This document shows positions 6,467-7,950 of a stretch of 50,674 nucleotides of DNA, one piece after another. Under the pieces are notes generated by a model. That model was not told the origin of the DNA. It ran no database searches and worked only from the letters and a program-made list of their open reading frames with translations. The translations under genes were made by a program, and so were the position numbers. The stretch's first letter is position 1, and each line of letters begins with the position of its first letter. The DNA is from Candidatus Zambryskiibacteriota bacterium (lineage in GTDB: Bacteria > Patescibacteriota > Minisyncoccia > Phycocordibacterales > DATDWN01): assembly GCA_023267045.1 (NCBI GenBank), contig JAHFOB010000005.1, forward strand, positions 1-50,674, read 5' to 3'.

Positions 6467-6554
6467 ATGTCAAAGAGACACTTTGACATGATGTTTTCAT
6501 TGGGAAAGTTGATAATAATAGCTCATGTCAAAGTGTCTCTTTGACATGAGCTAT
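6467..6554. repeat. Inverted pair of REP-like palindromes flanking the RAYT gene (3' side)
   Basis: atgtcaaagagacactttgacat (6467-6489) and atgtcaaagtgtctctttgacat (6525-6547); the second extends to a 16-bp stem at 6518-6554. Confidence 0.95.
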
Positions 6555-7163
6555 GGATGACAAGGCTAGGGTTTCTTTTTCAAAATCTTTATCATTCCCA
6601 AACATTGGTTTTATCAGATCGAGGTTTGTTAGTAGAAATTTTCTATTAGACACAAAGTCATTGTAACTACTCCATTTATATTTTTCTGGGCTCCCCACTA
6701 ATTTATCTTTAACAGAGTTCATATGTATGTACGCTGAAGTCCACATTAGTTGAGAATCTGTTTCTATGTTCACAGCTTTGAAACAATCTTGAAAGATATG
6801 GCCAACCCGTTTGTATTTGTTGTTTATATACTTAGAATAACTAGCACAAACTTTAGAAATTAATTTTGAAATTGATATGTCGCCACGTTGTTCTATGAGC
6901 AGATGAAAATGATTTGGCATTAAACAAAAAGAATGAATCTTAAAAAGTTTCTTACCTTCGGTTTCTATTCTTATTCTAGAATAGGGGAGATTGATCATTT
7001 TTTCATTTTTGATTTCTTCCTGTTCGAACCCCATTGCTAGAGCTATTCTAAAAAGAAAAGCTTTGTAGTCTTGTTCCTCGAGAAATACTTTTTGTTTATT
7101 ATTTCCTCTATTGTATATATGAGCGACAGTTCCTTTTGCAAAATTTTTATAGTCTCTGTTCAT
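6528..7163 (-). CDS. REP-associated tyrosine transposase (IS200-like Y1_Tnp/RAYT family)
   Basis: HUH-type 'FCLMPNHFHLLIEQ', 'SYSKYINNKYKRVGHIFQDCFKAV', 'YIHMNSVK...KWSSYNDF'; flanked by REP-like hairpins. Confidence 0.92.
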   Translation of the reverse strand: MNRDYKNFAKGTVAHIYNRGNNKQKVFLEEQDYKAFLFRIALAMGFEQEEIKNEKMINLPYSRIRIETEGKKLFKIHSFCLMPNHFHLLIEQRGDISISKLISKVCASYSKYINNKYKRVGHIFQDCFKAVNIETDSQLMWTSAYIHMNSVKDKLVGSPEKYKWSSYNDFVSNRKFLLTNLDLIKPMFGNDKDFEKETLALSSIAHVKETL

Positions 7164-7176
7164 ACTTCTATACTAC

Positions 7177-7263
7177 ATGTCAAAGAGACACTTTGACAAC
7201 CTTGACTAACTTTCAAAATGTTGGCTGTAAACATATGTCAAAGTGTCTCTTTGACATATGTTT
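7177..7263. repeat. Inverted pair of REP-like palindromes flanking the RAYT gene (5' side)
   Basis: atgtcaaagagacactttgaca (7177-7198) and atgtcaaagtgtctctttgacat (7235-7257); the second lies in a 15-bp stem at 7229-7263. Confidence 0.95.
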
Positions 7264-7415: not shown

Positions 7416-7422
7416 GTAGAAG

Positions 7423-7907
7423 TTATGCTGGATAGTTGCTGGGAGAGACTCTCGAGTCTTTTCTGGAGGAAAGTCCGAACATCAGGCTCGAGGTAACTTG
7501 AGCAAGGGTAGCGGGTAACGCCCGTCGACAGTAATGTTAGAGGTGCGAGCAGTGACGCTTGAGGCGAAAGCTAAAAGTGCCCAGTAAGAATAGAATTCGC
7601 AAGAGATCAATTTTTACGGGGTAAATTCAATAGAAATATTGGAGTGAAACGGCAAAATCCTTACTTTGATGCAAGGCCGTGCTTATGCATCTCACAGAGG
7701 TGAGATGCAGTTATCAAGTTTGAAAGTTTAAAGTTAAAAGTAGATGCGCTAAAAATAAAATTGCGCATTCACTTGATAACTTGATAACTTTTTACTTTTA
7801 ACTGCACTGAACTTCCGTGAGGTGCATAGGAGTGCCGCTTGACCCCGAGAGTAATTTCGGGGCTAGATAAATAACTATCTACAACAGAATTCGGCTTATA
7901 GGCATAA
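7423..7907 (+). ncRNA. rnpB: RNase P RNA
   Basis: Conserved 'GGAGGAAAGTCCGAACATC', 'AGGGTAGCGGGTAACGCCCG', 'GATGCAAGGCCGTG', 'ACTGAACTTCCGTGAGGTGCATAGG', 'ACAACAGAATTCGGCTTATAGGCA'. Confidence 0.93.
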
Positions 7908-7913
7908 TAAAAT

Positions 7914-7950
7914 GAAAATCGTCACCGTAAAAGGTGGCGATTTTCTTTTG
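7914..7950 (+). terminator. Rho-independent terminator after rnpB
   Basis: gaaaatcgtcacc-gtaaa-aggtggcgattttcttttg hairpin followed by T tract. Confidence 0.75.

Follow-up and report, generated by a model that had tools for sequence, protein, structure and literature searches.

A RAYT locus in a Patescibacteria genome and a family of palindromes recurring inside protein-coding genes

Palindromes of the RAYT type normally lie between genes. In the window analyzed here (the whole stretch of 50,674 nucleotides, from a Nomurabacteria-like genome of 750 kb, G000), four palindromes surround a Y1 transposase gene, and the initial annotation had read this layout as a complete, recently mobile module rather than as a domesticated gene accompanied by dispersed REPs. 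The question raised by the locus is whether transposase and palindromes form such a module, and where else these palindromes are found.

Layout of the locus and identity of the transposase

The arrangement of four palindromes as an inverted pair on each side of the transposase gene was confirmed (Table 1). Both pairs are inverted, with 58 nt from start to start and 35 nt between the members, and the four near-identical copies share the common core TGTCAAAG-N5-CTTTGACA. In single-stranded form they fold into strong hairpins, and in two of these the stem is lengthened to 15-16 bp by differing flanks; the stem of the inner left palindrome reaches 6518-6554, and that of the outer right palindrome reaches 7229-7263, taking in the start of a T run (7258-7263). 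The RAYT stop codon (6528-6530) falls within the inner left palindrome, and a palindrome likewise lies over the RAYT 3' end in the related units L071, L148 and L068. The inner right palindrome precedes the RAYT start codon by 13 nt. The left and right spacers showed no significant likeness when compared in both orientations, so that the mirror symmetry described earlier is confined to the palindromes; for the same reason, the possibility that the right pair is a copy of the left pair within the window was rejected.

Table 1. Features of the RAYT locus in the window
Feature	Position	Strand	Remark
Outer left palindrome, ATGTCAAAG-AGACA-CTTTGACAT	6467-6489	+	
Left pair spacer, 35 nt	6490-6524	.	
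Inner left palindrome, loop TGTCT (AGACA on the - strand)	6525-6547	-	holds the RAYT stop codon
RAYT ORF, Y1 HUH transposase, 211 aa	6528-7163	-	H85/H87, Y145
Inner right palindrome, loop AGACA	7177-7199	+	last base A, not T
Right pair spacer, 35 nt	7200-7234	.	
Outer right palindrome, loop TGTCT	7235-7257	-	

The RAYT ORF matched Pfam Y1_Tnp (E = 1.5e-11) and the NCBIfam profile REP_Tyr_transpos (E = 1.1e-17), although with a score (64.3 bits) below the curated cut-off of 80, and strict membership of that NCBIfam equivalog is therefore not claimed. The same profile was matched by all 21 relatives (E < 0.001). Moreover, the HUH pair and the tyrosine of the YIHxN motif (Y145) were invariant in the 21-member alignment, so that the catalytic residues whose possible loss had been raised in the initial annotation are present. 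An AlphaFold2 model of the protein (pLDDT 87.8) had E. coli TnpA-REP (4er8) as its best structural match, and a profile search also led to this structure; a single-sequence search of the PDB returned spurious matches only. Based on sequence and predicted structure, the gene is identified as a RAYT, a putative Y1/HUH transposase with intact catalytic residues. With respect to the motifs listed for subclass 2.1 (PMC6006769), NHFH, FQ and WSS are present, and the listed Y motif, Y[IV]HLNP, corresponds to YIHMNS in the window protein and, for the most part, to YIHMNP among close relatives.

No second copy of the whole RAYT unit was found in G000, the other RAYT-like genes of which are 34-39% identical, and because the genome has this single copy, mobility of the whole unit of approximately 800 bp is unproven. 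The earlier reading is borne out as far as a RAYT-palindrome unit with intact catalytic residues is concerned, close RAYTs having the same ends, but not as regards a self-contained module in place of dispersed REPs.

An RNase P RNA gene (RF00010) was located at 7420-7914 of the window (495 nt versus a model of 367 nt), and an AT-rich inverted-repeat stretch inside it (approximately 7709-7789) may be an insertion. At the position corresponding to that of the window RAYT, flanked by a large repeat ORF and rnpB, the locus L425 (contig C9 of G004) carries a different RAYT, approximately 41% identical. The search for an empty site at the RNase P locus was abandoned, as the relatives are too distant: G004 holds that different RAYT, and the others have none adjacent or a truncated contig.

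Dispersed copies and their position in genes

The exact pattern of the common core occurred 15 times in G000, versus approximately 0.0003 expected, and the reversed control pattern gave 0 matches, an occurrence far above chance. Four of these copies are at the RAYT locus. The genome search outside the locus, as proposed by the initial annotation, yielded the 11 others, all of them genic, with the loop AGACA or TGTCT in four and other loops in seven; the opposition of a module to dispersed REPs was thus not upheld. When as many as 3 mismatches were tolerated across the 18 fixed positions of ATGTCAAAG-N5-CTTTGACAT, only two further sites appeared in G000, each with 3 mismatches, and there is therefore no tail of decaying copies in this genome. 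One of the two is the sister variant TGTCAAGG-N5-CCTTGACA. Sites with 1-2 core mismatches were absent from G000, the one-mismatch rows being exact cores with a changed flanking base. Neither a common GT[AG]G flank nor a common CCA tail was found among the 15 sites, and the TGTC of the palindromes is paired with GACA. Named records sharing these palindromes and RAYTs belong mostly to Nomurabacteria-type Patescibacteria, and presence is patchy, ranging from 0 to 15 copies per genome in one genus.

All 11 dispersed copies of G000 lie in frame within long ORFs. Based on Pfam and orthologue alignments, these were assigned to tgt, uvrC, leuS, argS, asnB, truB (two sites), thrS and recG, with one further copy in recJ (assigned from sequence and orthologues) and the remaining one in an unnamed gene. 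Ten of the sites read [MV]SKxxFD in the direction of the gene, and at the second truB site the palindrome provides the stop codon (VKETL, then stop), as it does for the RAYT itself. The frame preference (MSKxxFD at 10/10 internal G000 sites) was rejected as a sign of targeting, because matches that arise by chance in unrelated genomes behave alike (25 of 27 open coding matches had the same preference).

In genome G008, 21/21 dispersed copies (two arm variants together) were genic, and the two genomes together gave 33/33, the G000 part being 12 (the 11 plus one variant copy). Genic and intergenic positions were scored by ORF length rather than by annotation, on MAG assemblies with a moderate number of sites and with different species as nearest relatives. 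At least two of the three dispersed copies of a third genome, G048, look intergenic. ORFs cover approximately 0.89 of the window, and coding density alone gives p = 0.02 for genic placement; a mere effect of coding density was rejected, as it is contradicted by a second family of the same genus. The latter belongs to another RAYT, on contig C24 of G000, with its own palindrome TGTCAACCTG-N-CAGGTTGACA. Among its copies dispersed in G000, G004 and G010 (those near RAYTs and one site left out), only 1/8 fell within a long ORF (at least 200 aa), versus the 33/33 above (p = 4e-7). Both palindromes are open in two of three frames, and coding capacity therefore does not explain the difference between the families. 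In tgt, the position that holds a copy of the TGTCAAAG family in G000 is occupied by a C24-type palindrome in G010, so site tolerance also matters. Two genomes and a single control family form the main basis of the claim of gene targeting.

Palindromes of related kinds were observed elsewhere. Doublets 33 nt apart occur in recJ, rnhB, uvrB and leuS of G008 (L303, L321, L143 and L282), some with mirrored loops, and resemble REPINs in coding sequence. Bacterium UASB270 (L056, L060, L083, L087 and others) has many TGTCAAAG-CTCTG-CTTTGACA copies, often in short ORFs and at times clustered approximately 54 nt apart, and no RAYT relative was found in the stretches examined. A third RAYT is located on contig C16 of G000 (L018), and the adjoining pheT-like gene holds a palindrome of a different type, ACTTGGACATC-g-GATGTCCAAGT, with a TWTSDVQV peptide; similar peptides are found within that third RAYT. 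The TruB sequences of L208 and L211 (G007) and of L207 (G020) contain other in-frame inserts of approximately 25-45 codons, possibly further palindromic elements.

Target codons and resident transposases

Net length changes with respect to orthologues were read by eye off the alignments, and are approximate in loops. No change was detected at 10 of 26 sites (uvrC, asnB, thrS twice, recG, recJ, truB twice, holB and uppS), while two sites were one codon shorter (-1) and the rest ranged from +2 to approximately +10 codons, ksgA (+8) being a clean insertion. As far as alignments can tell, this spread fits a joining reaction in which differing numbers of target bases are lost and a filter for reading frame follows. 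The surplus of sites without length change may reflect either a replacement mechanism or selection acting on structured regions.

The same codon was occupied in different species, with differing loops or arms, in uvrC (five genomes), recG (four), argS (three), and thrS and trxB (two). In recG of G010 the peptide is retained and the palindrome has been lost through synonymous changes. A masked multi-gene tree grouped G006 with G008 and placed G000 next to the pair, with weak support (0.58). G006 has no palindrome in uvrC, thrS and argS, where its sequence is ancestral-like, a pattern which suggests repeated gain. The Arg codon just downstream of the uvrC palindrome was AGA/AGG in 5/5 bearers (L002, L248, L251, L070, L138) and CGN in four non-bearers, and some non-bearer orthologues of recG, thrS and asnB already resemble one arm. 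Recent horizontal transfer of gene segments was provisionally set aside, as flanking identity gives it no clear support.

Palindromes of the form TGTCAA(A/G)G bound close RAYTs of other Patescibacteria; those with the same palindrome as the window RAYT have it at both ends, 639-691 bp apart, and sister RAYTs carry the variant TGTCAAGG arms there. Among the RAYT loci of the order, one shared palindrome was found on both sides in 16/29, versus 0/41 control loci. Within genomes, 19 of 39 dispersed copies had the same loop pentamer as the ends of the resident RAYT, versus an average of 6.7 after permutation of the ends among genomes (p = 0.011); in G000 the agreement was partial (4/11). All loops were ACTCC in G006 (5/5) and TTCAA in G048 (5/5), RAYT ends included in both counts; the loop of the TGTCAAAG RAYT of G008 matched 0/9 of its dispersed copies. 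From the loop matches we infer that the RAYT copies the palindromes and that RAYT variants replace one another over time.

Competing explanations and known systems

The locus is probably a unit of the REPtron/TIRtron type, the palindromes of which form a mobile family copied or moved as single-stranded hairpins by this RAYT or a close relative. The RAYT would cut the single-stranded hairpin, probably at the replication fork; its joining into target DNA would remove a variable number of target bases, and selection would then keep the in-frame outcomes. Recognition of the palindrome would differ from that of E. coli TnpA-REP, because no GTAG-type guide tetranucleotide flanks the palindromes. It is doubtful whether the RAYT family rather swaps approximately 21-23 nt of target for a palindrome at preferred codons of conserved genes, often without change of length, by templated or hairpin-for-hairpin replacement instead of insertion, with later loops overwriting earlier ones at the same sites. 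Against the explanation by a mobile family, seven of the 11 dispersed copies of G000 and the nine copies compared with the TGTCAAAG RAYT of G008 have loops other than those of the RAYT ends, and the exact zero net change at 10/26 sites runs counter to plain insertion; strict length-neutral replacement as a rule was dropped, net insertions up to +8 having been seen.

The sites without length change, the one-arm resemblance in recG, thrS and asnB of non-bearers and the same codons occupied in several species would also agree with a host-selected motif, that is, binding sites for a host protein, placed like parS or DNA uptake sequences and built within genes by selected point mutations, with the RAYT merely carrying or exploiting them. 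Yet this explanation is decidedly improbable, given the lack of genome sites with 1-2 core mismatches, the patchy presence in one genus, the net insertions at several sites, loops which track the resident RAYT above expectation, and same-type palindromes flanking RAYTs and not control loci. Shared codons, together with the AGA/AGG codon common to the five uvrC bearers, are likewise what a few old genic palindromes would leave if they had been passed on by descent or through homologous recombination between species, with only loops and arms changed later. This is improbable, as the flanking identity of bearers is not clearly higher, G006, the sister of G008, is ancestral-like at three of these genes, and both the paired changes in the arms and the agreement of loops with the local RAYT would in any case require the copies to be rewritten. 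Hairpins located shortly before the start codon, across the stop codon and beside the T run could be taken as terminator or translation-control hairpins of a domesticated transposase, with an old and inactive dispersal; however, all 15 cores are exact and without decayed copies, the catalytic residues are intact and regulation of the RAYT cannot account for the genic copies, which makes this highly improbable.

A RAYT flanked by REP pairs on both sides is the described layout of a REPtron; that of E. coli has three REPINs, and REPtrons reportedly do not transpose as a unit (PMC6006769). With the REPtrons of E. coli and Pseudomonas and their REPINs or BIMEs (PMC6006769, PMC3116915), the present locus shares inverted REP pairs flanking the RAYT, genome-wide copies and a RAYT-specific REP family, but it differs in having no GTAG/GT[AG]G tag, no stem bulge, few copies (15), and dispersed copies that were genic in both genomes counted, REPs being extragenic in those systems. 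TIRtrons are RAYT-like genes with flanking terminal repeats, some self-complementary, mainly of subclass 2.1 (PMC3733652, PMC6006769). The likeness to the TIRtron/TIRYT type (TnpA-Y1 subclass 2.1, Bertels group 1) comprises a RAYT-like Y1 transposase which largely shares the motifs listed for the subclass (NH[YF]H, FQ, YIHxN and SS), inverted repeats at each terminus, with possible self-complementarity and overlap with the gene end (each repeat being itself a palindrome here), and repeats that can form a genomic family. In contrast, the ends are TGTC-tipped palindromes rather than GGGGWSAS repeats, the RAYT has 211 aa versus 238 tabulated for subclass 2.1, and the dispersed copies are mainly intragenic.

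REPs lying within genes, stop codons supplied by REPs and REPs inserted into uvr, polA, truB and tRNA synthetase genes are known, as are CGTC elements without an associated transposase, and coding palindromes of Rickettsia were previously described (PMC3733652, which cites Ogata 2002). The present copies resemble intragenic GTAG and CGTC REPs and the Rickettsia palindromic elements in being in-frame palindromes of housekeeping and repair genes. Likeness also extends to the CGTC elements in their stems of 8-9 bp, loops of 4-5 and a tag that is often TGTC, and to GTAG REPs in that these can supply stop codons (PMC3733652). However, CGTC REPs and RPE-4 and RPE-6 have an unpaired CGTC/TGTC tag and a CCA-like tail, while the tag is paired here and no common CCA tail is present; and whereas CGTC elements have no associated transposase, here the RAYT carries the same palindrome at its ends. 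No report of such elements in Patescibacteria was found in the open-access literature, to which the search was confined.

What is new here is a palindrome family with an attached transposase, almost wholly intragenic and recurring at fixed codons. No transposase is associated with CGTC-type elements, which has left the spread of protein-coding palindromes in Rickettsia and elsewhere without an explanation (PMC3733652). In the present case an almost wholly intragenic family is physically tied to a putative transposase, and a sister family of that genus, mostly intergenic, serves as a built-in control; both target choice and the joining mechanism are therefore directly testable. Housekeeping proteins of Patescibacteria thus carry peptides (MSKxxFD, MSRxxLD) of probable mobile-DNA origin, which is relevant to aligning and modelling them.
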